Origin: Clostridia bacterium
Lineage (GTDB): Bacteria; Bacillota; Clostridia; UBA1381; UBA9506
Assembly: GCA_017546245.1 (NCBI GenBank)
Contig: JAFYXI010000022.1
Coordinates: 1 to 64,000, forward strand
Length of the DNA: 64,000 bases
Direction: 5' to 3'
A program made the position numbers and the translations under genes. Shown piece after piece: positions 8,140-54,099 of this stretch (positions are counted from its first letter, which is position 1; every line of letters begins with the position of its first letter). Below the pieces are notes generated by a model. It saw nothing but the letters and a program-made list of their open reading frames with translations, was not told the origin of the DNA and did no database searches.

Positions 8140-10767
8140 ATGAAACGTATAGCAGTAGGAATATTAGCTCATGTTGATGCCGGTAAAACGACTTTATCTG
8201 AAGGTATTTTATTTTCTGCGGGAGAAATACGCAAGCTTGGCAGAGTTGATACCAAAGATACATTTTTAGATACTGACGAATTAGAACGCAAAAGAGGCAT
8301 TACAATTTTTTCTAAACAGGCTGTAATAAGCTTGGAAAATACGATAATAACTCTATTAGATACACCGGGCCACGTCGATTTTTCGGCAGAGACAGAACGA
8401 ACATTAAGTGTGCTTGATTACGCCATTTTAGTTATAAGCGGTACAGACGGCGTACAAAGTCACACTAAAACACTTTGGGATATGCTTAAAAAACATCAGA
8501 TACCGGTATTTATTTTTATAAATAAGCTTGACCTGGCAGGAAGTGATAAAAAAAGTGTTATTGATGAACTTAAAAATGAATTTAAAGAAAATTTTGTTGA
8601 TTTTTCTGATAATGAAGAAATTTTGTCCGAAAATCTTGCTGTTTGCGATGAAGAACTTATGGAAGAGTTTGAAAATGGCGTGCTTTCTGAAAGTTCAGTT
8701 GCAAATGCTATCGAAAAAAGAAATGTTTTTCCTTGTCTTTCAGGCTCTGCTCTTAAAATGGAGGGTGTAGAGTATTTTATTAAAGTCTTTGACAAGCTTA
8801 CCAAAGAAACAAGCGCAATGAACGAATTTGGCGCAAAAATATTTAAAATTGCTCAGGATGATAAAGGCAACCGTCTTACTTTTATGAAAATTACAGGCGG
8901 TAGTCTTAAAGTAAAAAGCCTGATTGAATCTGATGAAAATACCCGGGAAAAAATAAATGAAATAAGAATATATTCAGGCGATAAGTATACAACGCAAACC
9001 GAGGCATTCCCCGGCTGTGTTTGTGCAGTTACCGGACCTAAAAAAACGGCTGCAGGGCAAGGATTAGGCTTTGAAAAAAATGCATCAAAACTTGTATCAG
9101 AGCCGATTTTTGCCTATCGTGTAATTTTGCCAAAGGGTTTAGAGCCGTCTGTTGCGTTTGACAAACTCAAGGAGTTGGAGGAAGAAGAAACACAACTCAA
9201 AGTAACGTGGAATTCTCAGCTTAAAGAAATCCAGTTGCGCCTTATGGGCGAAATTCAGCTTGAAGTATTAAAACAGCTTATATTGAAACGTTTTGATATG
9301 GCGGTCGAGTTCGAAGAAGGGCGCATAGTCTACAAAGAAACTATAGAAAATACCGTCGAGGGTGTGGGTCATTTTGAACCATTAAGACATTATGCAGAGG
9401 TACATTTGGTTTTATCTCCTTTACCGCAAGGTTCGGGTATGCAATTTGAATCTGATTGCCCTGAAAATGTACTAGATAAAAACTGGCAAAGACTTATCTG
9501 GACACATCTTATGGAAAAACAACACATAGGCGTCCTTACAGGCTCACCAATAACCGATATAAAAATAACATTAAAATCGGGTGCAGCACATTTAAAGCAT
9601 ACTGAGGGAGGCGATTTCCGTCAGGCAACATACAGAGCAGTAAGACACGGTTTAAGATGTGCAAAATCTGTGCTTTTAGAGCCTTATTATGATTTTGTTA
9701 TTGATATTCCTGCCGAAAATGTCGGCAAGGCTATGACTGATTTAGACCTTTTAGGTGCAGAGTTTTCTGTCTATCACGCAGGAGGTGAAATGGCTAAAAT
9801 CAAGGGTAATGCACCTGCTGCGGCAATCAGGAACTATCATAGTCAAATTACCGCATACACACACGGCAAAGGCAGAATGGCCTGCAATTTAAGCGGATAC
9901 GGTAAGTGTAAAAATGCAGATTCTGTTATTGAATCAATAGGCTATGATGTTGATAGTGATATTGAAAATACCGCTGATTCTGTCTTTTGTTCTCATGGAG
10001 CTGGTTTTAATGTTAAATGGAGTGAAGTAACAGAATATATGCACTTAGATAGTGTATTAAAACCTAAAAAAACAGAGCCGGAGAGGGCAAATGCTGTTCG
10101 TTCAGTAAGTAATATTAATGCGTCTGATGATGAGCTTTTAAGAATATTTGAAAAAACGTATGGCAAAGTTGAAACAAAGCTTCCGACTTATGCTTTAAAG
10201 ACAAAAAAAGAAACAGATAATATGCATAAGCCACATAATAGCAGAAAAAAACACGATAAAGATTATCTTTTAATTGACGGATATAACATAATCTTTGCGT
10301 GGGAAAATCTTAAAGAAATTGCCAAAGACAGCTTAGAGGCGGCAAGAAATGCATTGATTGAAAGAATATCGGTTTATAAAATATTTAAAAAATGCGAAAT
10401 TATAATTGTATTTGACGCATATAAAGTAAAAGGGAATCGTGGAGAGGTAGAGCACGACAAAGGTATAACCATTGTCTACACCAAAGAATCACAGACTGCT
10501 GATGCTTATATTGAAAAAGCGGCAAAAGAGCTTACTAAAGATTATAATGTAACTGTTGCGACATCAGACGGTGTAGAACAACTAATAATTTTCAGCAGCG
10601 GAGCATACAGAATGCCCGCAAGCCATTTAGAAGATGAAGTTATAAATGTTGAAAAAAATATTAAAACCTTGATGGAACAAAATAATGCAGAAACTGATGC
10701 ATCAGGATTTTTAAAGATTTTAGAAGAAAAACTGGTCGAATGGAAAAGTAAAAACAGCGAAGATTAA
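8140..10767 (+). CDS. Tet(M)/EF-G-like ribosomal GTPase fused to a Rae1/YacP NYN nuclease
   Basis: An 875-residue two-part protein. Residues 1 to about 660 form a translational GTPase of the ribosomal-protection class: P-loop AHVDAGKT (10-17), RGITI (52-56), DTPGHVD (74-80) with His78, and NKLD (128-131), then EF-G-like domains II-V. A linker rich in charged residues leads to a NYN/YacP domain (about 708-855): DGYNII with Asp713, VFDAY with Asp759, TADAYIE with Asp788 and ATSDG with Asp810. These are the acidic positions expected of an active NYN RNase. B. subtilis Rae1 (YacP) cuts mRNA in the ribosomal A site. The reading frame is open throughout. rho follows after 20 bases. It is unlikely to be a dedicated tetracycline resistance gene. 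Confidence 0.88.
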
Positions 10768-39327: not shown

Positions 39328-39514
39328 TATTATAATTTTAAATAATCCAAAAAATTCCAAAAATATGCAAAGTCATTTTTAATTGGTTTTGCAGTTTTTG
39401 GGATTTTTATTGTTAACATATTTCGCTGAAATAGGTTTCGTTTTTTATATGTCGGTTATGCTGTAGCTTTTAAAACTTTTAGGTTTCTATATGCACAATA
39501 ATCATAATTTTATG

Positions 39515-39543
39515 TTTACAAACAGATTAATTTATGATATACT
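39515..39543 (+). promoter_or_regulatory. Promoter of the cohesin/dockerin cluster
   Basis: TTTACA (39515-39520), 17-base spacer, TATACT (39538-39543). It is the only good promoter ahead of four closely spaced secreted-protein genes that end at the terminator near 46381. Confidence 0.65.
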
Positions 39544-39592: not shown

Positions 39593-40636
39593 ATGCGTAA
39601 AATTTTATCCCTAATTTTAGCGTTGTTTATTTGTATTAACATAACAGCATATGCTGAAAATACAGCTTTAAAAATATCCTGCACACAAAATGATACGGGT
39701 TATTCGGTTAGCGTGTCAATAAGCGGCAATCCGGGGATTTGTGCCGGCTCGTTCGAAATTGAGTATGATAGCACAGCTTTTAAAATAAGCGATTTGGTTA
39801 GCGAAGAGGTCATAGGTAATGCGATGGCGGTAGTTAATGAAAATTTTAAAGAAAATCAGGCTAAGGTTACATTTATGTCTCTTTCGCCCATCAGCGCAGA
39901 CGGTGAGGTAATAAGTTTTAATATATCTCCTGAAACAGAAAGTGCCTATACTAAAATAGAAATTAAAAATTTGTTGCTTGCCGATGCAAACGAAAATCAA
40001 ATAGTCTGTGATGTATTTAATGCTGAAATCGGAGAAAAAACAGAACCAAAAGAAGAGTTGCCTGAAACCTCTGAGGATATAGTTTCGGATATTCACATAA
40101 ACACCGGTTCATCGGGAGGAAGTAAAAAAACAGATAAATCAACGAAGCAGGAATATACTTTTGAACAAAGAATTGCCGATGTAATTCTTTTGCAGATTGA
40201 TAACTGTTATGCTTCGGCTTATGGCGTAAGAAAGTCGATAGACGAAAACAACGACAAAGTAGTTCCTTACATCAGTCACGACCGCACTTTAGTTCCTTTA
40301 AGATTTATAGCTGAAACTCTTGGGGCAGATGTTTTATGGGAAAACGGATGGAATGGTTGCGTAATAAAAAAAAGCGATAAAGAAATAAAAATTACATTTG
40401 GTTCAAATGAATTTACAGTAAACGGAAAAACCATAATTTATGATGCTCCTATCGAAGTTGTCGAAGAAAGAACGATGGTGCCCATAAGATTAATTTCGGA
40501 AGAATTAGACTGTAATGTTTATTGGCAGAACAAAAACAGAGCAGTTGTTATTTCGCCGTTAACGAATCCGTGGAAAGAATCTGCTCAAACAGAAAAAACA
40601 GCACTTTTAAAAATGCTTGAACTTATAAAAAAATAA
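39593..40636 (+). CDS. Secreted protein: cohesin-like domain plus copper-amine-oxidase-like stalk domain
   Basis: A 347-residue exported protein. The signal peptide ends near AYAEN (about residue 20). Residues about 22-145 form a cohesin-like beta sandwich (SVSVSISGNPGICAGSFEIEYD). After an acidic, Ser/Gly-rich linker comes a pair of copper-amine-oxidase N-terminal-like motifs (about 220-330): RTLVPLRFIAETLGADVLWE and the half-repeat RTMVPIRLISEELDCNVYW. That stalk domain is common in Clostridia surface proteins and is not catalytic. ATG 39593 follows AAGGAAGTG; a TTG just before it is in frame. First gene of the cluster. Confidence 0.78.
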   Translation: MRKILSLILALFICINITAYAENTALKISCTQNDTGYSVSVSISGNPGICAGSFEIEYDSTAFKISDLVSEEVIGNAMAVVNENFKENQAKVTFMSLSPISADGEVISFNISPETESAYTKIEIKNLLLADANENQIVCDVFNAEIGEKTEPKEELPETSEDIVSDIHINTGSSGGSKKTDKSTKQEYTFEQRIADVILLQIDNCYASAYGVRKSIDENNDKVVPYISHDRTLVPLRFIAETLGADVLWENGWNGCVIKKSDKEIKITFGSNEFTVNGKTIIYDAPIEVVEERTMVPIRLISEELDCNVYWQNKNRAVVISPLTNPWKESAQTEKTALLKMLELIKK

Positions 40637-40695
40637 CGCGATGCGTTTTTAAATATATTTAATATTAAAATATTAAATTAAAGGGGATGATTTTA

Positions 40696-41523
40696 ATGAA
40701 AAAAACAGCGCAGATTTTGTTGGTGGCAATGCTTGTATTTTCGGCAATAAGCGTTTCGGCATACATGCCCGACGAAAATGACCGATACAGCATAACCTAT
40801 AACGCAGGTGTGGAAAATGCAGGAAATATGTATGGTCTGGCTGCTATAGCCGGAACGGATGAAAATATGGATGTAGCTGCAGACAATGCATTGGTTTATG
40901 TATATCAGACAACGGCAGATGCAGAGGGCAACATTACGTTTAACAGCTTCGGACCGATTGGACCTGATCCAAGCGATCCTGACTATGTCGAAAGTACTGT
41001 TTTTATAGGCGGTCAGGGTTTTGATACAGCTCAAATGATAGGTGTTTTAGAAGCGGCGTCCTCGTCCGGCGATGATGCAGAAAGCGCAGCTATCCGTGGT
41101 ATGGCTACCGATAGTGTCAGTCCTTCAAAACCGATAACGGTTACAGTTACCGGCGATGACGGCGTTGTTGTTGGCACAGCTACTGCAAACGATGACGGCA
41201 CTTATGAAATATATGTTCCGCATGGCACATATAGTATTAAATTCACAAAAGAAGGTTTTTGTTCTTGTACATATCGAAATGTTTCGGTAACGGGTGACAT
41301 TGACTTTGAAATGGTCGATATGACAAACTTAGCCGGTGATATTGTAGCAAACGGTACAGTTAATATTATGGATTTAAGCGCATTGCTAAATGACTACAAC
41401 AAGCAAATTCCTTATAATGAGTTATCAAATCCGTTATCTGATATTAACGGCAACGGCTCGGTTAATATTGCAGACCTGAGCTTGCTGCTTAGCGGCTATA
41501 ACTCAAGCGATATAATAAAGTAG
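40696..41523 (+). CDS. Secreted protein with C-terminal type I dockerin
   Basis: A 275-residue exported protein. The signal peptide ends near VSAYMP (about 20). The middle is of unknown fold, Ala/Asp-rich. Residues about 145-205 look like a carboxypeptidase-regulatory beta domain (GVVVGTATANDDGTYEIYVPHGTYSI). Two dockerin-type calcium loops end the protein: DIVANGTVNIMDL and DINGNGSVNIADL. The second has a full set of ligands; the first lacks the Asn/Asp at the third position (Val instead). AAGGGG nine bases upstream favours ATG 40696 over the ATG at 40687. No enzyme domain. Confidence 0.8.
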   Translation: MKKTAQILLVAMLVFSAISVSAYMPDENDRYSITYNAGVENAGNMYGLAAIAGTDENMDVAADNALVYVYQTTADAEGNITFNSFGPIGPDPSDPDYVESTVFIGGQGFDTAQMIGVLEAASSSGDDAESAAIRGMATDSVSPSKPITVTVTGDDGVVVGTATANDDGTYEIYVPHGTYSIKFTKEGFCSCTYRNVSVTGDIDFEMVDMTNLAGDIVANGTVNIMDLSALLNDYNKQIPYNELSNPLSDINGNGSVNIADLSLLLSGYNSSDIIK

Positions 41524-41563
41524 TTATTTACATTTTATAAATAAAATACAGGAGGAAAGTTTT

Positions 41564-44500
41564 ATGAAAAAAACATTAAAAAGCATGCTTCATATTCTTC
41601 TTGCTATTTTAATAGTTTTAGGTAGCTGTGGTATAGTTTTTGCTGCCGAAGAATTAGCAAAACTTGAAATTTATGAAGTAGATGCGTCAAATGATGTTGA
41701 ACCCGGCGTTTACAAGCTTGTGTTTAATGCAATATTACCGCCTGAAAATCCGAATGCTGCGGTAACAAGCCTTGTATTTTCTTACGACACGGATGTAATC
41801 CAGCCTGTAAGACATACCAATGGTGCGGATGTTGCTCTTTATGAGGGGGCATCAAATTCGCTGTTTAACAGAGTGTTTAAGGCATATGCAAATGAAGATG
41901 AATTTGTTGAACTTTCATTTGCTCCGTTTGCATCTGTAGCAAGCGGAAACAGACTTGCAATAAAAGTAGATACATATGCACTTGGCACTTATGTAGATGC
42001 TTCAAACGGAATGGTATTTACAGAGTTTTTCTACAAAATTAAAGAAGGCGCAAAACCGAATGCCGATACCTTTAAGCTTGAAACAGAATATTATGACGGC
42101 TCTGTTTTAAAACAGATGTATCCGGATGCGAGCGAGGCTGCTGCTGTATTGGTAGGTACATATCAATACGGAAAAGCATCAGGCAGTGATACAATGTATT
42201 TAGATTCATTTACATTTACAGGCTCTGACGTTAAAGGTGATGCTCCGGCTGAACCTGATGTTCCTGATGAACCTCCTGTAGATGAGCCTACCGAAGAACC
42301 AACAGAAGAACCCTCGGTAGAAACTGACGTTCCTTCAAAAGAACCTCCGGTAGAACCAACCGTAGAACCTACAGTTGCACCAACTGTTGAGCCTACTTCA
42401 GAACCTACTGAAGAACCGAAACCTTCTGAGGATGCTCCTGAGTATATAGGTACAGGCTCACTTAACATATACGAAACAAGTGTTGATGAGGCAGCAGGCG
42501 TTAACAAGCTTGTATTTAAAGCAAAGCTTCCCGATGGTGCTGAAGGAATTAACGTTACAGGTCTTGTGTTCTCTTATGATGAGTCGGTAGTTCAGCCTGT
42601 AAATAAATCAACATATTCTGATGTTGCTATTTCTCCGACAACAACCGATTCAGTTACTAGAAGAGCTTTTAATGCATATACAAGCGATGAATATGAATTT
42701 GCTTTCGCTCCGTTTAATGTAATACGCCAGAACGGCAGAGTTGCAATTAAAGTAGACACCTATCTTACTGATGGTACTGCAGATTTCTGTGATGAAACGA
42801 TGTTTACAGAATTTTACTTTAGAATTAAAGATGGAATAGTTCCAAATTACGAAACATTTAAACTCGAAACAGAGTATTCCGACGGAACAATTTTAAAGGC
42901 TATGTATTCTGATGAAACAGAAGCAGCAACTGTAATTTTAGGTAATAATTATAAATACGGTATGCCTTTAGGTAATGATACATTAGAATTGGAATCATTT
43001 ATCTTTGCCGGCTGTGATAATTATGAAGAGATAATACCGCCGGCAACAGCTGCACCGACAGAAGAACCGCCGGTAGTTGAACCGGATGTGCCTACTGATG
43101 AACCGGCAGAGCCTGATGTTCCTTCTGAAGAACCGCCGGTAGTTGAGCCGGAAGAATCTATTGAACCTGCTATTATAGATGTAACTGCAGAAATGGTAGA
43201 TCCTGACGAGGGAATTAAAAAATTGGTGTTTAAAGCAACTACTCCTGAAGGTGCAAAAGGAATTGCTGCAACAGGTATTGTATTCTCGTATGATACTTCT
43301 GTAATTCAGCCTGTTAGACATTCAAATGGTGCGGATATAACAATTACAACTGCATCTAATGATACAACATTAAAAAGAGTATTTAAAGCATATGAAGATG
43401 ATGAGTATGCATTCTCGTTTGCTCCGTTTATGGTTATGGAAGCCGACGGCAGAATTGCAATTAAAGCCGATTCTTTTTGTGTAGATACTGCAATTGATGC
43501 AAAAGACGGTATGATATTTACCGAGTTTTACTATAGAGTTAAAGAAGGTCAGCAGGTAACAGAAGATACCTTTAGACTTGAAGCTGATTATATAGACGGC
43601 TCTTTCTTAAAAGAAGCATATAGCGATCCGAATACAGCGGCTGCTGTAATAGTTGGTGACTATAAATACGGCTGGGCAAAAGAAGGAGTAACCGATACTG
43701 CTTGGTTAAATTCCTTCCCGACGGAAGATGCTGAGCCTGTATGGTATGATATCAGCGAATTTACAGATGCGTTAGAGTATCAATATGTTGACTACAACAG
43801 AGAAGAACAGTATTACGAGCTTCCTGAATTGCCGGAAATTCCTGATGCTTCTTTGACTGTTGATGTTACATATGTTGATGTAGACGGAAATGAAATTACT
43901 GCACCGAAAAATGCAGGCGTATATGACGTAATAATTAGCTTTAACAGCGAAAATCCGAACTATTATACACCGGATGATATAACAACCTGCTTTATAATCG
44001 AAAAGATTGATGCCGTTATCGCAGCTGATGCTGTTCAGGAATTTGTATATGACGGTACAGAAAAAACAGTTGCCGCCTCAATTGCAGAGGGTGATGAAGG
44101 GGTAGAACTTGTAATCGAAACCGCAACAGAAATCGGTGAATATGATGTCGCTGTAATATATCCTGAATCTGCTAACTATTACGAAACATATAAGTATGTA
44201 AGACTTAATATATTAAAACCAACAGTTCCGATTGCTTTTGTTTCAGATATTCCTGCTGTAACTGTTGATTACGGCACAACATATAATGTAAGCACATCAA
44301 AGCTCGCAGATAGTGTTAAAGTTCAGCTTGAAAATGGCGAAAGCGCAATGGTTAATATCATCTGGAGAGAAAACAGCACTCCGATATACGATGAAATTAC
44401 ACCGGGAACTTATACATTTACCGGCGAATTTGATTTAGACCCTGAAGGTCTTATCGTAAATCCGTACGGCCTTGTTGCAACCGCTAAAATTGTTGTTGCA

Positions 44501-45112
44501 GAGCCAACAATCATTAAAAATATGTATGTATCTTCAGATATTGGTATAATTGACGAAACAGTTGATGTGGTTATTTCAACCGAGGGCAATCCTGAAATGG
44601 CAAGCGGCAGCTTTGTTATTGAATACGATCCGGAATTATTAACTCCTGAACGTTATTCGAATTATGGTGTGCTTCCCGGATTGATGGTAAATCTTGATTA
44701 TGACTACGGTAAAATTAAGGTAACCTTTGCAGGAACCAGCGAAGCCGCAAAAGGCGGAGATGTGCTTAAGCTTAGCTTCTATGTAAGTTCTTGGAATACA
44801 GACAAGCAAAATACTGAAATCGCAATTAAAGATGCAAGCATTTACAACGCACAGGAAAAACGTATCAAGATTATAACAAACAACGGTACAATCACAGCAA
44901 GAAAGCTTATCTTAGGTGATGTAAATGATGATGGCTCGGTAAATATTCTTGATGCATACAGAGTACTTGTTTACGATGCAGGCTTATTAGATGCCGATTT
45001 CTCAAAGGTACAGAATAAAGCAGCAGATGTAAACAAAGACGGTTGCATTGACATCTTTGATGCTATGAGAATTCAACGTTACGTAACCGGATTTATCGGT
45101 ACATTAGAGTAA
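41564..45112 (+). CDS. Large secreted scaffold-like protein: three repeated modules, Ig-like domains, cohesin-like domain and dockerin
   Basis: A 1182-residue exported protein. After the signal peptide (end near VFAAEE, about 28) come three homologous modules of about 185 residues (about 30-224, 294-490, 536-719), each with LVFSYD, QPV, FKAY or FNAY, FAPF, IKVD and FTEFYY. Pro/Glu/Thr-rich linkers with repeated EEP, EPT and EPP units join them. Then follow two MBG-type Ig domains (about 725-885), a Big_4-type domain (to about 984), a cohesin-like domain (about 985-1112, with GNPEMASGSFVIEYD) and a type I dockerin (about 1115-1180) with GDVNDDGSVNILDA and ADVNKDGCIDIFDA. No sortase or S-layer anchor and no catalytic domain. 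AGGAGGAAAG sets the start. Confidence 0.85.
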   Translation: MKKTLKSMLHILLAILIVLGSCGIVFAAEELAKLEIYEVDASNDVEPGVYKLVFNAILPPENPNAAVTSLVFSYDTDVIQPVRHTNGADVALYEGASNSLFNRVFKAYANEDEFVELSFAPFASVASGNRLAIKVDTYALGTYVDASNGMVFTEFFYKIKEGAKPNADTFKLETEYYDGSVLKQMYPDASEAAAVLVGTYQYGKASGSDTMYLDSFTFTGSDVKGDAPAEPDVPDEPPVDEPTEEPTEEPSVETDVPSKEPPVEPTVEPTVAPTVEPTSEPTEEPKPSEDAPEYIGTGSLNIYETSVDEAAGVNKLVFKAKLPDGAEGINVTGLVFSYDESVVQPVNKSTYSDVAISPTTTDSVTRRAFNAYTSDEYEFAFAPFNVIRQNGRVAIKVDTYLTDGTADFCDETMFTEFYFRIKDGIVPNYETFKLETEYSDGTILKAMYSDETEAATVILGNNYKYGMPLGNDTLELESFIFAGCDNYEEIIPPATAAPTEEPPVVEPDVPTDEPAEPDVPSEEPPVVEPEESIEPAIIDVTAEMVDPDEGIKKLVFKATTPEGAKGIAATGIVFSYDTSVIQPVRHSNGADITITTASNDTTLKRVFKAYEDDEYAFSFAPFMVMEADGRIAIKADSFCVDTAIDAKDGMIFTEFYYRVKEGQQVTEDTFRLEADYIDGSFLKEAYSDPNTAAAVIVGDYKYGWAKEGVTDTAWLNSFPTEDAEPVWYDISEFTDALEYQYVDYNREEQYYELPELPEIPDASLTVDVTYVDVDGNEITAPKNAGVYDVIISFNSENPNYYTPDDITTCFIIEKIDAVIAADAVQEFVYDGTEKTVAASIAEGDEGVELVIETATEIGEYDVAVIYPESANYYETYKYVRLNILKPTVPIAFVSDIPAVTVDYGTTYNVSTSKLADSVKVQLENGESAMVNIIWRENSTPIYDEITPGTYTFTGEFDLDPEGLIVNPYGLVATAKIVVAEPTIIKNMYVSSDIGIIDETVDVVISTEGNPEMASGSFVIEYDPELLTPERYSNYGVLPGLMVNLDYDYGKIKVTFAGTSEAAKGGDVLKLSFYVSSWNTDKQNTEIAIKDASIYNAQEKRIKIITNNGTITARKLILGDVNDDGSVNILDAYRVLVYDAGLLDADFSKVQNKAADVNKDGCIDIFDAMRIQRYVTGFIGTLE

Positions 45113-45125
45113 GTAGGTGAATGAA

Positions 45126-46352
45126 ATGAAAAATAAAGTATTATCATTAGTATTAATATTATTAATTGCGTTTTCTATGTGTTTACCTGCTTATGCAGAT
45201 AATGCCACAGCTACAATAAAAGCTGTGGTAAGTGATTGCACGGTAAACAGACAGATTACCGTAAGTATTCAGATAAGCGGTGCGCAAGATGTTTGCGGCG
45301 CATCTCTCGAGGTTATGTATGATAATTCTGCTCTTGAATTAGTAAGTGCAACAAAAGGAAGTATAATTCCTGCTGATAGCTCACAGTTAAATGATAAGTA
45401 TACTGATTACAGTGTAAAACTAAACTGGATGAGCGGACAGGAAGCTATCGCTGACGGTGAAATCCTTTCACTTGTGTTTAACACAAAATTAACCGGAAAA
45501 GCTTTAATATCGTTTGATAAGATTAAACTTTCAAAGTTTGACGAAACCCCGGTTTCTTGTATTGCAGATGATGTTTTGTTTGATATTTATCCTGAGTGCG
45601 AAAGCATTACAATAAGCGGTCCTGATAAAATAACTGACAAGACAGCTTATTCAGCAATATGCGAACCGACCGGATTCCCAAGTAAATTTGTTAAATGGTC
45701 AATTGATAATGAAGAGATTGCATATATAAACGAGAGTGGAATCTTAACCCCGTACGTTGACGGTGAAATTACCATTACCGCAGAGGCAACAGACGGCACA
45801 GGCATTAAAGCAACCAAAACAGTATATGCTGACGTTGTTCTGTGTGAAGCTTTTGAAATTGACGACGAAAGCTCAGAAGAAGCAGCTGTTGTATGGTGTC
45901 CTGAAAATGGTATAACAACAGTAGATATTACTTTTGCAGCCTATGATGAACTCGGAAAAATGATTGCGTTTAAACCATATACAGCAGATTTAAAAGAAGG
46001 TAAAAATACTGTACCTGCAACAGACTTTAACTTTAGCGGTGCACGCAAAATTAAAATCTTTATGTGGGATAGTGTGTCAAACGCATTGCCTCTTTGTGTG
46101 GAAAAAGAGTTTTTAATGACGAATTATCCGACATCAAATATGGCAGTAGTAACAGGTGCATCTAATAATGGCGAAAACACAGAAACAGTAAAAGTTAGTT
46201 TTTTTGAGACTGGCGAAGCGGTACAGGCAGAAACAGACGTGTTTAAATATAACGAAATCGAGGAAATAACAAAAGCTAATGTTTTTGAGATTTATGATAC
46301 CTCTCGTTTTAACAAGGATATAGCAAAGGCATTGTCATCACTTACTAAATAA
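45126..46352 (+). CDS. Secreted cohesin-like / Big_2 protein
   Basis: A 408-residue exported protein. The signal peptide ends near AYADN. Residues about 23-150 form a cohesin-like domain (VSIQISGAQDVCGASLEVMYD). A Big_2-type Ig domain follows (about 157-238, with VKWSIDNEEIAYI and GILTPYVDGEITITAEA). The rest is a beta domain containing FAAYDELGKMIAF and KIKIFMWDSVSNALPL, the same type of ending as in the LRR protein at 6881. ATG 45126 lies after TAGGTG; a GTG at 45117 is inside that site. It follows the 1182-residue protein by 13 bases and precedes a strong terminator. Confidence 0.78.
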   Translation: MKNKVLSLVLILLIAFSMCLPAYADNATATIKAVVSDCTVNRQITVSIQISGAQDVCGASLEVMYDNSALELVSATKGSIIPADSSQLNDKYTDYSVKLNWMSGQEAIADGEILSLVFNTKLTGKALISFDKIKLSKFDETPVSCIADDVLFDIYPECESITISGPDKITDKTAYSAICEPTGFPSKFVKWSIDNEEIAYINESGILTPYVDGEITITAEATDGTGIKATKTVYADVVLCEAFEIDDESSEEAAVVWCPENGITTVDITFAAYDELGKMIAFKPYTADLKEGKNTVPATDFNFSGARKIKIFMWDSVSNALPLCVEKEFLMTNYPTSNMAVVTGASNNGENTETVKVSFFETGEAVQAETDVFKYNEIEEITKANVFEIYDTSRFNKDIAKALSSLTK

Positions 46353-48556: not shown

Positions 48557-49678
48557 ATGAAAAATACTTTTAAAATGTTAGTGATAGCATTAATTGGTGT
48601 TTTATTGCTGCCAAATTTAGCATTTGCAGATGAGGTTAATGCTGCAAATAATGTAAAGTTATATACATTAACACTTGAACAGGCGATTAATATTGCAAAA
48701 AAAGATAATCCTCAGCTGATGTCGCTTGAAGCAGCGCAAAAAAGCAATAAAATAAACCTGGATTCGGCACAATTAACTAAGAAAAAATATAAAAATATTG
48801 CTCCAAGCACCAGCAATTACGAGCTTGCGTACATAAAAAAAGGCTATTATGTTGATATGTATGAAATGCTTATTCGTCTTAATGATAAAGAAACAGAGCA
48901 GGCAAATGCATCAATTGCATATAACACAACATCAGCTTATTTTAACTATAAAATAATGCAGGAACTCTGCAAGGTAGCAGAAAATGCATATAATCTTGCA
49001 AATGAAAATTATAATAATGTAAGCAAGCGCTTTGAACTTGGTATGATTGCAGAAATTGATTTAAACAATGCATACTTAAGTGTTGAACAATGTTTAAATA
49101 CTCTTAACAGCTATAGACAAAACAGCGATATAGCAAAAGAAAATTTAAAAATTTATCTTCAGCTAGAAAATGAAAATTGTGATTTTAATTTAACCGATTC
49201 GATTGAGTGCTCAGAATTTTCTGCAGATATAACAAAGGATATTAAGCTTGCTGAGGAAAGTCGCTACGATATAATTGCGCTTAAAGAAAATTACGAGATG
49301 GCTCAAAAATATTTTGAATATACCAAGCCATTAACAGCATATTCGGCAAGATACCAATCAGCGCATAGTGATTTGATGTCTAAGGAGTATTCGTATAACA
49401 ACAACAAAAATCTTATACTTCTTTCGGTAAGAAATAGCTACAATGCGGTTTTAAATGCAGATGACAGTTTAAAAATCGCTGAAAAAGCAACAGATATTTC
49501 ATATAAAAGATATGAAATTAATAAAATTAAATTTGAAAACGGAATGATAACAAACAGCGACCTCACAGCATCGCTGAATGAATATTTGAGTAGTGCGATT
49601 TCGCTTGAAAACGCCAAGCTTTCTTATAAATTAGCAGTTGAAAAATACAGCTATGATGTTACTATAGGATTGAAATAA
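48557..49678 (+). CDS. TolC-family protein
   Basis: A 373-residue exported protein, with signal peptide (end near AFADEV, about 25), made of long coiled-coil helices in two similar halves, as in TolC/outer membrane efflux proteins: LTLEQAINIAKKDNPQL at the start and repeated KRFELGMIAEIDLNNAYL / IKFENGMITNSDLTASL elements, one per half. It is shorter than E. coli TolC (about 470 mature residues) with reduced loop regions, as in Gram-positive relatives. An AAGGAGATAA site sets the ATG. It heads the efflux operon. In a one-membrane cell it may span the wall rather than an outer membrane. Confidence 0.8.
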   Translation: MKNTFKMLVIALIGVLLLPNLAFADEVNAANNVKLYTLTLEQAINIAKKDNPQLMSLEAAQKSNKINLDSAQLTKKKYKNIAPSTSNYELAYIKKGYYVDMYEMLIRLNDKETEQANASIAYNTTSAYFNYKIMQELCKVAENAYNLANENYNNVSKRFELGMIAEIDLNNAYLSVEQCLNTLNSYRQNSDIAKENLKIYLQLENENCDFNLTDSIECSEFSADITKDIKLAEESRYDIIALKENYEMAQKYFEYTKPLTAYSARYQSAHSDLMSKEYSYNNNKNLILLSVRNSYNAVLNADDSLKIAEKATDISYKRYEINKIKFENGMITNSDLTASLNEYLSSAISLENAKLSYKLAVEKYSYDVTIGLK

Positions 49679-49701
49679 GGAAAATATAAAGGAGTTTAAT
49701 C

Positions 49702-50988
49702 ATGCTAAAAAAATCAATTTATAAAAGTATATGTTTGTGTATTGCACTTGGAATGATGCTTGGTGGCTGCGGAAAGTCAAAAGCTACACAGCAAGCAGAT
49801 GATGCAATAAATGTAACTGTTTTTGAGGCAGGAGAAGATAGCATAAACGCGACTGCTGACTATACCGGTCAGATTATGGGTGCGCAAAGCACAACAGTAT
49901 CTGCTATGGTATCGGGTAAAGCTAACGGCATATATGTAGAAGAAGGTGATTATGTTACCGCAGGCACAATCTTGCTTTTGGTAGATGCTACAACATATCA
50001 GCTTGCATATAATCAGGCATTGGCTGCATATAACAGCGCTTTGTCAGGCAAAAAAAGTGCAGAAGCAAGCTATAACAGCGTAACCGGCGGAAGCACTCAA
50101 CAATCCTTAGCTCAGCTTGAATCAGCATTAAATGCTGCAAAGCTTGCGCACGATAATGCATTAGATACATATAACAAAAATAAAACTCTTTTTGATATGG
50201 GAGCAATAAGCCAGTTAGAATTTAATGGCTACAAAACCGCGTACGAAAATGCCAAACTTAATTATGATACAGCTCAGACAAATTATAATCTTACAAAAGA
50301 CGTAGTTTCTAACGAGTCAAAAGCGGTAGCGGCAGCCGGTGTAGACAGCGCACAGGCAGGAATACAGTCTGCTAAAGCCGCTTTGGATATAGCTGCAAAT
50401 AATCTTAAAAACTGTACTGTAACCGCGCCTATTTCAGGATATATTTCTGCTAAAAATGTTAATAAAGGTCAAATGGTATCGGCAGGAATTGCTTTGTTTA
50501 ATATAACAGATACTTCATCTGTAAATATTGAAATCAATGTTACCGAATCGGTAATACCGCTTATCTCGGTCGGAACAAAAGCGACTATTAATGTCAGCAG
50601 TGCAGGACTCAGTAATTTAGAGGGAACGGTAGCTATTGTAAATCCGGTTAAAAATGCACAGACGGGACTTTATACAGTTAAAATATCCTTACCAAATGCT
50701 GATGGTGCATTAAAAGAGGGTATGATTGCAAATCTTACTTTAATAACAGAAAGCAGCGATAACACATTGGTTGTTCCGTCAAATGCTTTGTTACAGTCAG
50801 ACGAAGATGGATATTATGTGTATATTGTAAATGGCGATGCTGCCGAAAAACGACCGGTACAAACAGGAATTGAAAGTTCAGAATTTACTGAAATTCTTTC
50901 CGGTATAAACCTTGGCGATAAGGTTGTTGTGGATGGAAAAGATTATATTTCTAAAAACAACAATAAAGTTAAAATTGTAACAGAATAG
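49702..50988 (+). CDS. RND efflux adaptor (membrane fusion protein), lipoprotein
   Basis: A 428-residue lipoprotein with the modified Cys23 in LGGC. Lipoyl half-motifs flank a long Ala/Asn-rich coiled hairpin (about 100-220): VSGKANGIYVEEGDYVTAG before it and TAPISGYISAKNVNKGQMV after it. A beta-barrel (TDTSSVNIEINV) and membrane-proximal domain follow. It links the RND pump to the TolC-like protein. GGAG sets the start. It lies 23 bases after the TolC-like gene and 12 bases before the pump. Confidence 0.9.
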   Translation: MLKKSIYKSICLCIALGMMLGGCGKSKATQQADDAINVTVFEAGEDSINATADYTGQIMGAQSTTVSAMVSGKANGIYVEEGDYVTAGTILLLVDATTYQLAYNQALAAYNSALSGKKSAEASYNSVTGGSTQQSLAQLESALNAAKLAHDNALDTYNKNKTLFDMGAISQLEFNGYKTAYENAKLNYDTAQTNYNLTKDVVSNESKAVAAAGVDSAQAGIQSAKAALDIAANNLKNCTVTAPISGYISAKNVNKGQMVSAGIALFNITDTSSVNIEINVTESVIPLISVGTKATINVSSAGLSNLEGTVAIVNPVKNAQTGLYTVKISLPNADGALKEGMIANLTLITESSDNTLVVPSNALLQSDEDGYYVYIVNGDAAEKRPVQTGIESSEFTEILSGINLGDKVVVDGKDYISKNNNKVKIVTE

Positions 50989-51000
50989 GGGAGAGATGTC

Positions 51001-54000
51001 ATGAAATTACATGAATTGTCAGTAAAACGCCCCATAGCTGTTACAATGGCGGTGCTTATTTTTGTTGTTATAGGTTTGTATTCGCTAACTATGCTGCCGC
51101 TTGAAATGATGCCCGAAATGGAAATGAACTATGCCTTGGTGTATACATCATATTCAAATGCCGGTTCTGCTGAAGTTGAATCATTAGTCAGTAAAACTAT
51201 CGAGGGTGCAATAGGTTCTGTATCAGGAATAGATACTATCCAAAGCCAATCTTCTGAGGGAACTTCAATTGTTATGGCATCTTTTGCTGCCGGAATTGAT
51301 ATGGATAAAGCGGTTATAGATATGGAAGATAATATTGATTTAATTGAAGATTATCTGCCTGAAAACTGCGCAGAACCTATGGTAATGAAGCTTGATACCT
51401 CCATGATGCCTGCGGCAATGATGAGCGTAAGTTACGAGGGATATGACCTTATTCAAACTAAAAAATTTGTAGAAGATAATCTTCAAAACAAACTTGAGGC
51501 GGTAGACGGTGTAGCTTCTGTCAGCGTTGCAGGTGCACGTGACAGAATAATAGAAGTGCAAGTTGACCCTGAAAAAATGTACGGCTATGATATGAGTGTG
51601 TCTTCGTTAGTATCTTCTATTTCTGCTCAAAATGTTAATATGCCTGCCGGTTCTACTGAAGGCATGAACAAAAATATGTCAGTCAGAGCATTAGGAAAGT
51701 TTACTTCAATTAAAGATATTGAAAATGTTCCGTTAACAACTACACGCGGTCAGCTTATATATTTAAAAGATGTTGCTAAAGTATCAGACACTTTTTCTGA
51801 CTACACCAACCACGCAAGATTAAATGGCGAAGATGCCATTTCTGTTTCAATTACAGCGGAATCTGATGCAAATACTGTTGATGTAGTAAATGGAATTTTA
51901 AAGGAATTGGAAGAACTAAAAAGCAAGCACCCGCATTTTACATATAACATGACAATGGAGCAGGCAAGCTTTATTGAAGAAGCAATAAGTTCTGTTGCAA
52001 GCAATGCTGTAACAGGTGCGTTTCTTGCTATAATTGTATTGCTTTTGTTCTTAGGCAATATTAGAACTTCTATGGTTATTGGTATAACTATGCCGGTTTC
52101 GATTATTACGACCTTTATAGGTATGTATTTTTCAGGCATGAGCTTAAACGTTGTTTCTCTTGGCGGTTTGTCGCTTGGTGTAGGTATGCTGGTTGATAAT
52201 GCGGTTGTTGTTATTGAAAATATATATAAAAGAAAATCGGATTTAGGCGAAGATGCCAAAACTGCAGCTATAAAGGGGGCAGGTCAGGTTATTTCACCGG
52301 TTATAGCATCAGTTCTTACAACATGTATTGTTTATGTGCCCATATTATTTATTGATAATATGGTAGCTGTAATGTTTAAACAATTAGCATTTTCTATAAT
52401 TTTTTCACAGCTTGCATCTTTAATTGTAACGTTTTTAATTATTCCGATGTTTACATCAAAAATGGAGAATGCCGAACAAAAAAGTAAGCGTTTATCATTT
52501 ATATTAACTCCGTTTGATAAAATGATGAATTATTTGTACGGAAAATATCAGAAGGTTTTAAAAGTGATGTTAAAAAACACACGCAAAACCGTTGCAATTA
52601 CTCTTATAATCTTTGTTATAAGCTTAATCGTGCTTGGTATGCAGGGAATGACACTTATGCCATCAACTGATGAAGGAACGTTAACCATAAGTATATCTAT
52701 GCCTCAAGGTACAAAAACAGAGGATACTGACAAACTTTCTGAAAAAATTGAAGAAAAGCTTAAAATACACGATGATATTGAAACAATTTTTGCTAATGTT
52801 GGCTCGTCGGGAGCAATGTCTGCAATAAGCGGTTCAGGCTCAAATTCGTCCAGTATTACTGTAACCCTGAAGGAAAAAAGAAAAAAGACCACAGACGATG
52901 TTGGGCAGGAAATACGAGAAATGCTTTCTGATATTGCAGGTGCTGAAATATCTGTTGCATCTTCTAACAGCGCTATGGCAGGTATGTCATCTGATGAAAT
53001 ATCTTTTGAGTTTTCGGGTAAGGATGATACACAACTCGATGAATTTATAAAACAAGCTGAAAATACGTTGTCAAAAATTGAGGGCGTAACAGAAACCGAA
53101 ACCTCACTTTCCGAAACTAAGTCAGAAGCCAGAATAAAAATTGATTCAGCCCGTGCTGCAAATTACGGATTTAATACAGCAACTCTGTCATCGCTCGTAA
53201 AATCTGTTTTAGAAGATACAACAGCGTCCAGATATACAGAAAACGGCAGCGAGTATGATATAAAAATTGTATATCCTGATGATTATGTAAAAAATTATAA
53301 CGAACTAAAAAAATTACAGATAAAATCACCTATGGGGCAATGGGTATCGCTTTCTGATATTTCAGATGTAGTTGTAGAGCAGGGGTATACAACACTTACC
53401 AGAATTGATCAAAAACGTGTAGTAACATTAAGCGGAAAGCTTTATGGAACAAATATGGGTGAAGTAAAATCAAAATTTGAAAAAGCACTTACACAAAATG
53501 AAATTCCTGAAGGAATATCTATGAATACCGGCGGAAATTATGAAGTAATGACAGATGCAATGAGTTCGCTTTTCATTGCCATAATATTAGGTATTTTGCT
53601 TATGTATTTTGTTATGGCTGCACAGTTTGAAAATTTAATGCAACCTTTTATTATTCTATTTACAATTCCGCTTTGCATGATCGGTGTTGTATTGGCATTG
53701 GTCGTTACTCAAAGTCCGTTATCGGTAATAGGCTGTATTGGTATTTTAATGCTTACAGGTATAATTGTAAACAACGCAATTGTTTTGATTGACTATGCTA
53801 ATATAAAACGCAGAGAAAATCCTGATATGCCATTGGATGATTTACTTGTCGAATCAGGCATGGCGAGAATGAGACCAATTTTGATGACAAGTTTAACATC
53901 CATATTAGGCTTCTTGCCTATGGCTATGTCATCAACGGGCGGAGCTGCTATGATGCAGCCACTTGCAATAGTATTAATCGGTGGTCTTACCGTAGGAACT

Positions 54001-54099
54001 TTTTTGACCTTGTTTATAATACCTGCTGTATATAAAATATTTGAGAATAAAGGTATTAAAAGAAAAATAAAAAAACAACAAATAAGTCAGAATATATGA
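51001..54099 (+). CDS. RND-family efflux pump (HAE1/SwrC-like)
   Basis: A 1032-residue AcrB-type transporter with 12 membrane helices in two halves and large extracytoplasmic loops. The N-terminus KRPIAVTMAVLIFVVIGLYS and the helix-4 stretch GVGMLVDNAVVVIENIYKR are typical. Of the AcrB proton-relay residues, Asp407 is kept (Asp399 here), Asp408 is Asn400, and Lys940 corresponds to Asn924 in IIVNNAIVLIDY; this D-N/N pattern also occurs in SwrC-like pumps. It probably exports amphiphiles or drugs. It completes a three-part operon closed by a terminator that begins inside the stop codon. Confidence 0.93.
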   Translation: MKLHELSVKRPIAVTMAVLIFVVIGLYSLTMLPLEMMPEMEMNYALVYTSYSNAGSAEVESLVSKTIEGAIGSVSGIDTIQSQSSEGTSIVMASFAAGIDMDKAVIDMEDNIDLIEDYLPENCAEPMVMKLDTSMMPAAMMSVSYEGYDLIQTKKFVEDNLQNKLEAVDGVASVSVAGARDRIIEVQVDPEKMYGYDMSVSSLVSSISAQNVNMPAGSTEGMNKNMSVRALGKFTSIKDIENVPLTTTRGQLIYLKDVAKVSDTFSDYTNHARLNGEDAISVSITAESDANTVDVVNGILKELEELKSKHPHFTYNMTMEQASFIEEAISSVASNAVTGAFLAIIVLLLFLGNIRTSMVIGITMPVSIITTFIGMYFSGMSLNVVSLGGLSLGVGMLVDNAVVVIENIYKRKSDLGEDAKTAAIKGAGQVISPVIASVLTTCIVYVPILFIDNMVAVMFKQLAFSIIFSQLASLIVTFLIIPMFTSKMENAEQKSKRLSFILTPFDKMMNYLYGKYQKVLKVMLKNTRKTVAITLIIFVISLIVLGMQGMTLMPSTDEGTLTISISMPQGTKTEDTDKLSEKIEEKLKIHDDIETIFANVGSSGAMSAISGSGSNSSSITVTLKEKRKKTTDDVGQEIREMLSDIAGAEISVASSNSAMAGMSSDEISFEFSGKDDTQLDEFIKQAENTLSKIEGVTETETSLSETKSEARIKIDSARAANYGFNTATLSSLVKSVLEDTTASRYTENGSEYDIKIVYPDDYVKNYNELKKLQIKSPMGQWVSLSDISDVVVEQGYTTLTRIDQKRVVTLSGKLYGTNMGEVKSKFEKALTQNEIPEGISMNTGGNYEVMTDAMSSLFIAIILGILLMYFVMAAQFENLMQPFIILFTIPLCMIGVVLALVVTQSPLSVIGCIGILMLTGIIVNNAIVLIDYANIKRRENPDMPLDDLLVESGMARMRPILMTSLTSILGFLPMAMSSTGGAAMMQPLAIVLIGGLTVGTFLTLFIIPAVYKIFENKGIKRKIKKQQISQNI

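Follow-up and report, generated by a model that had tools for sequence, protein, structure and literature searches.

The joint occurrence of cohesins and dockerins is usually taken as the mark of an enzyme complex, and gut genomes encoding both modules are counted as cellulosome-like. In the type-II cohesin/X-dockerin pairs of C. thermocellum and A. cellulolyticus (SdbA/ScaC with the XDoc of CipA), the X-dockerin is carried by an enzyme-loaded scaffoldin. Enzymes are similarly linked in the cohesin/dockerin glycosidases of C. perfringens and in the Limousia mucinolysome, a surface cohesin-dockerin assembly of gut Firmicutes that joins glycoside hydrolases (PMC12997984). Non-cellulosomal cohesin/dockerin proteins are nevertheless already known (Peer et al. 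2009, as cited in PMC9012536). They occur without cellulolytic enzymes in ANME archaea and the sulfate reducers associated with them, where a role in adhesion or extracellular structure has been proposed (PMC9012536, PMC10553843), while CipB of C. thermocellum (Cthe_1806) lacks known enzyme modules, has an X-module with a type-II dockerin at its end and binds anchoring cohesins (PMC5141474).

The operon described here lies in a window of 64,000 nucleotides (the whole stretch of DNA that was analysed) from the genome of a gut bacterium, and resembles the anchoring arm of a cellulosome rather than a cellulosome. Like the latter it encodes a non-catalytic, cohesin-bearing scaffoldin (P3, with three cohesin-like repeats and one Pfam cohesin, to which P1 and P4 add one cohesin each); unlike it, P1-P4 contain no carbohydrate-binding module (CBM) and the genome holds no dockerin-bearing enzymes. 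With the SdbA/ScaC-CipA pairs it shares the XDoc dyad, located in P2, and, in a paralogous operon, a type-II-like P1 cohesin and a P3 paralog combining cohesin-like with SLH repeats; here, however, the X-dockerin sits on a non-catalytic protein of 278 residues. CipB, by contrast, is a protein of 2177 residues that coexists with a full cellulosome, whereas P2 is small and encoded together with its putative cohesin partners (PMC5141474). No glycoside hydrolases are linked here, as they are in C. perfringens and Limousia. The non-cellulosomal systems of ANME archaea and sulfate reducers likewise have cohesins and dockerins without cellulolytic enzymes, but in the present case the whole genomic set has been mapped, and it comprises two paralogous operons, X-dockerins and putative SLH anchoring, with conservation in several genera.

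The operon (39593-46352) consists of four ORFs on the same strand, separated by gaps of 50, 40 and 4 nt and all beginning with signal-peptide-like sequences. The initial annotation of four secreted proteins in one apparent operon, with three cohesins and two dockerins, is thus confirmed by these gaps and by Pfam, whose matches in P1-P4 exceed the curated cut-offs, Big_2 excepted. The features are as follows.

39515..39543, + strand: promoter-like site, TTTACA-17-TATACT with extended TG, 50 nt before P1, its position being the sole support
39593..40636, + strand: P1, signal peptide, cohesin, Cu_amine_oxidN1 ('stalk')
39683..40030, + strand: P1 cohesin (PF00963 E=5e-8; own HMM E=4e-25)
40256..40552, + strand: P1 Cu_amine_oxidN1 domain (Pfam E=5.5e-30)
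40687..41523, + strand: P2, signal peptide, beta-sandwich N-domain (IxYIDQ motif family), X module, dockerin
40759..41061, + strand: P2 N-terminal beta-sandwich domain, without a Pfam name, conserved in six P2 proteins
41092..41502, + strand: P2 X-module/dockerin (XDoc) dyad, from family profile and structure matches
41564..45112, + strand: P3, signal peptide, three cohesin-like repeats with PT/acidic linkers, Ig-like domains, cohesin, dockerin
41645..42241, + strand: P3 repeat R1, cohesin-like (~46% identical to R3; hhalign against cohesins, probability 89%)
42440..43033, + strand: P3 repeat R2, cohesin-like (repeat comparison and hhalign)
43169..43741, + strand: P3 repeat R3, cohesin-like (PF00963 E=0.02; predicted model)
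43733..44425, + strand: P3 Ig-like region including Big_4 (Pfam E=1.1e-6)
44525..44893, + strand: P3 C-terminal cohesin (Pfam E=1.2e-10)
44912..45085, + strand: P3 dockerin (Dockerin_1, Pfam E=5.6e-10; both Ca loops canonical)
45117..46352, + strand: P4, signal peptide, cohesin, Big_2-like, C-terminal domain
45219..45566, + strand: P4 cohesin (Pfam E=1.8e-8)

A terminator-like hairpin lies upstream of the operon at 39366-39393, neither promoter-like nor terminator-like sites being clearly commoner than in shuffles of the region. The gene downstream of P4, at 46428, is convergent, and no RNA elements were found in the 64-kb window.

That the beta-sandwich domains of P1, P3 and P4 are cohesins, as had been proposed, is upheld by Pfam matches over the cut-offs. 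The Big_2 match of P4 is weak and falls under its curated cut-off, and the C-terminal domain of this protein recurs in a cohesin protein of another genome (G084). The N-terminal repeats of P3 are more divergent. Their common profile matches the local cohesins (hhalign 89%) and the best fold matches of the R3 model, predicted with low to middling confidence (mean pLDDT 59), are again cohesins; those to type-II structures reach Z 7.5 (rmsd 3.7 A over 126 residues), with type-I structures within 1 Z of them, and values of Z <8 do not separate the types. An assignment of the window cohesins to type I or type II from their folds was dropped because the Z values tie. Since a sequence search of R1-R3 against solved structures returned no match, their cohesin nature rests on the profile comparison and the modest model; with them, the operon has about six cohesin modules in all. 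An IMG/VR scan found no viral relatives of P3.

It is conceivable that such domains are generic beta-sandwich spacers with which the dockerins do not pair. The divergence of the R repeats from Pfam cohesins (E=0.02) and the abundance of Ig-like and SLH modules in the surface proteins of this genome are in keeping with this explanation; yet every dockerin of the genome sits in a cohesin-bearing operon, that of P3 has two canonical Ca loops, and P1 and P2 are linked, such that we regard it as unlikely.

The dockerins fall, on sequence, into two classes within the one operon, an X-dockerin in P2 and a type-I-like dockerin in P3. By Pfam the P2 end matches CarboxypepD_reg (5e-9) and Dockerin_1 (3.5e-6), but a family profile spanning both modules retrieves the XDoc of A. 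cellulolyticus ScaA (E=5e-15) and of C. thermocellum CipA (E=2.5e-10), and structure comparison also places the CarboxypepD_reg-like domain with the dockerin as an X-dockerin, using a model with mean pLDDT 65 whose dockerin part is under 50. Judged by profile and predicted fold, this end is therefore an X-module/dockerin dyad of the type-II kind that anchors cellulosomes. The P3 dockerin is closest to type-I dockerins, its PDB matches including those of CelS and Cel9. At the recognition positions of the Ca loops hydrophobic residues are found (I-L and I-F in P3, I-M and I-A in P2, L-P in the paralogous P2), the first Ca loop is degenerate in both P2 proteins, and these two have a D-L-S/T-x-L-L pattern in common. 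Taken together, the loop residues and this pattern suggest that the two P2 proteins share partners and that P3 has a different one.

The N-domain motif of P2 is also present in small dockerin proteins elsewhere in the order. Several families have small dockerin proteins that stand alone and carry a P2-like beta domain with an I(D/N)Q motif (L117 7028-7789; L122 7952-8590; L149 7760-8464; L150 2643-3338), and the gene for one of them adjoins an apparent rpoB.

The genome (2.03 Mb in 73 contigs, 96.7% complete) was searched for dockerins with Pfam, which found none beyond P2 and P3, and with a clade-tuned profile, which at E<=10 found only three, in P2, P3 and the paralogous P2. None is on an enzyme, and the window operon is therefore not a cellulosome scaffold locus; the expectation that no enzyme is connected to the cohesin and dockerin parts holds, and the genome-wide search proposed as its check yielded no enzymes with matching dockerins. 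With both searches an ordinary cellulosome locus was ruled out as a candidate. That it is one whose enzymes were missed through incompleteness of the MAG, for which the number of contigs and the completeness of the assembly leave some room, is hardly credible given zero enzyme-borne dockerins by two profiles, no GH/PL/CE family in the sampled dockerin proteins of relatives and no CBM in P1-P4.

Pfam cohesins over the cut-off likewise number only three in the genome, all in the window operon, and cohesins outnumber dockerins. One might then imagine that the organism borrows enzymes, its cohesins capturing dockerin-bearing enzymes of neighbouring species, the more so as a close relative comes from the goat cecum, where cellulosome producers are expected. 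But the operon has dockerins of its own and cohesin-dockerin pairs are usually species-specific, which makes such borrowing very improbable.

The claim that glycoside hydrolases, CBMs, S-layer and sortase anchors are lacking is correct for the locus and, as regards the S-layer, does not extend to the genome. In P1-P4 no CAZyme, CBM or SLH was detected by Pfam (CBM also by NCBIfam) and no LPXTG-like C-terminus was seen, the genome holding one sortase gene. SLH repeats are, however, found on a paralogous P3-like fragment. A second operon lies next to gapA where contig C7 ends, and comprises a P1-like gene (cohesin-like domain and Cu_amine_oxidN1) and a P2-like gene with an X-dockerin, followed by the first part of a P3-like gene; contig C62 begins inside a P3-like repeat, followed by a linker, FN3, Flg_new and three SLH repeats. 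From orientation and content we infer that the two ends belong to one P3-like SLH gene split by a contig gap. In another genome (G005) the P1-P2-P3 triad is unbroken on one contig, its P3 carrying a cohesin and, further on, three SLH repeats, and thus an operon with an SLH-bearing P3 does exist; the cohesin of this P3 was identified by the genome search (E=8e-9) and is missing from the Pfam whole-protein scan. The genome of the gut bacterium also contains ~90 SLH repeats and is matched ~15 times by the P1 profile, mainly through Cu_amine_oxidN1; for a genome of 2 Mb, its SLH surface proteome is very large.

Within the genome the two operons are 46% (P1) and 50% (P2) identical. A Clostridia MAG of the same genus from the goat cecum (G002) has both operons in part, and P1 of the same operon is 73% (first 144 residues, glyA copy) or 81% (gapA copy) identical between the species. 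As P1 identity is higher between species than between operons, the duplication predates the species split. The cohesin-like domain of the gapA-type P1 matches type-II cohesins in the PDB (A. cellulolyticus ScaB best at E=1.3e-5, with SdbA listed), and the hhalign match of the R repeats to these domains is weak. The window P1 has a different cohesin, and for this reason partner identity may differ between the operons.

Full-length relatives of P1 and P2 are present in the same five of 20 family genomes, from four genera, and at each of the six loci the two lie side by side. Two genomes (G007 and G012) have the P1-P2 pair without P3, and given the type-II matches of the gapA-type P1 domain, a type-II-like cohesin there adjoins an X-dockerin. 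In G052, a genome of the wider order, a cohesin-stalk protein comes directly after a small dockerin protein whose N-domain carries a related motif. These patterns bear on the notion that the operons are what is left of a former cellulosome, stripped of its enzymes, with anchoring components that survive but do little. An X-dockerin and type-II-like cohesins do make up the anchoring arm of cellulosomes, and the degenerate first Ca loop of both P2 proteins might reflect decay. Nonetheless, the ORFs of both paralogous operons are intact, P1 and P2 have stayed adjacent in five genomes of four genera, and non-enzymatic dockerin proteins occur throughout the order; all this argues for selection, and we consider the remnant explanation decidedly unlikely.

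The P3-P4 end resembles a recurring unit, a protein ending in cohesin and dockerin followed by one of cohesin and Big_2, which is found twice in a genome of the same genus (G003) and recurs in several genera across the order. The window operon may be a join of the P1-P2 unit with this unit. In G003 a Coh-Doc/Coh pair (L069 1-4100 and 5653-10316) lies beside apparent relaxase and tyrosine recombinase genes, which suggests transfer by a mobile element.

Related operons, which encode a cohesin-bearing SLH anchor, a protein with one or two cohesins and a long Coh-Doc protein, occur at seven loci across the order (L120, L127, L128, L133, L134, L135 and L136). The Coh-Doc protein of L120 has LRR_5 and Flg_new, and all seven three-gene loci are without glycoside hydrolases by Pfam. 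Among ~50 scanned dockerin proteins of relatives, a sample biased to high-scoring dockerins and including beta-helix regions that could conceal polysaccharide lyases, no GH, PL, CE or CBM family was found; their modules comprise LRR_5, Flg_new, SLH, Big_2, beta-helix, lectins and fn3, and their catalytic domains three S8 and two M60 peptidases and two Amidase_6. Three relatives in the order (G050, G061 and G040) have 14-29 dockerins each.

On this evidence the reading that we favour, with moderate confidence, is that of a small non-catalytic surface complex held together by cohesin-dockerin pairing in a cellulosome-like layout. P3 would act as the scaffoldin, R1-R3 holding up to three copies of P2 through its type-II-like X-dockerin, such that the bound copies display their N-terminal beta-sandwich domains. 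The C-terminal dockerin of P3, being of type-I character, would dock to the cohesin of P1 or P4 or, alternatively, bind that of another P3 and so generate head-to-tail chains. Attachment to the wall could be provided by the SLH-bearing P3 paralog of the gapA-linked operon, whose cohesin-like repeat would share the X-dockerins of both operons; the X-dockerin of P2 presumably also binds the type-II-like cohesins encoded beside gapA. P1 possibly adds to this attachment through its stalk domain. The proposal thus has the layout of the cellulosome, a multi-cohesin scaffoldin ending in a dockerin of the other class and anchored by SLH, with non-catalytic cargo in place of enzymes, and the role would be that of a structural or adhesive surface layer, or of a matrix. 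More tentatively, the same two-tier scaffold could be conserved in the family, X-dockerins carrying beta-sandwich cargo onto a tri-cohesin scaffoldin with an SLH base, again for a surface layer or matrix and not for degradation.

A near-complete genome with both modules and zero dockerin enzymes, and the same trend in its relatives, calls for caution in inferring fibre degradation from the presence of cohesins and dockerins. The system allows the role of very tight protein clamps without enzymes to be asked directly, and is a possible source of new orthogonal pairs for protein assembly.

Two further observations concern neighbouring genes. Near the cohesin operon, at 48557-54099, a complete efflux operon of OEP (TolC-type), HlyD and AcrB in an SLH-bearing Clostridia genome raises the question of envelope type. 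At 8140-10767, an EF-G-like GTPase is fused to a YacP-type NYN domain; the GTPase is similar to tetracycline ribosomal-protection proteins, with a match that stays under the curated cut-off.
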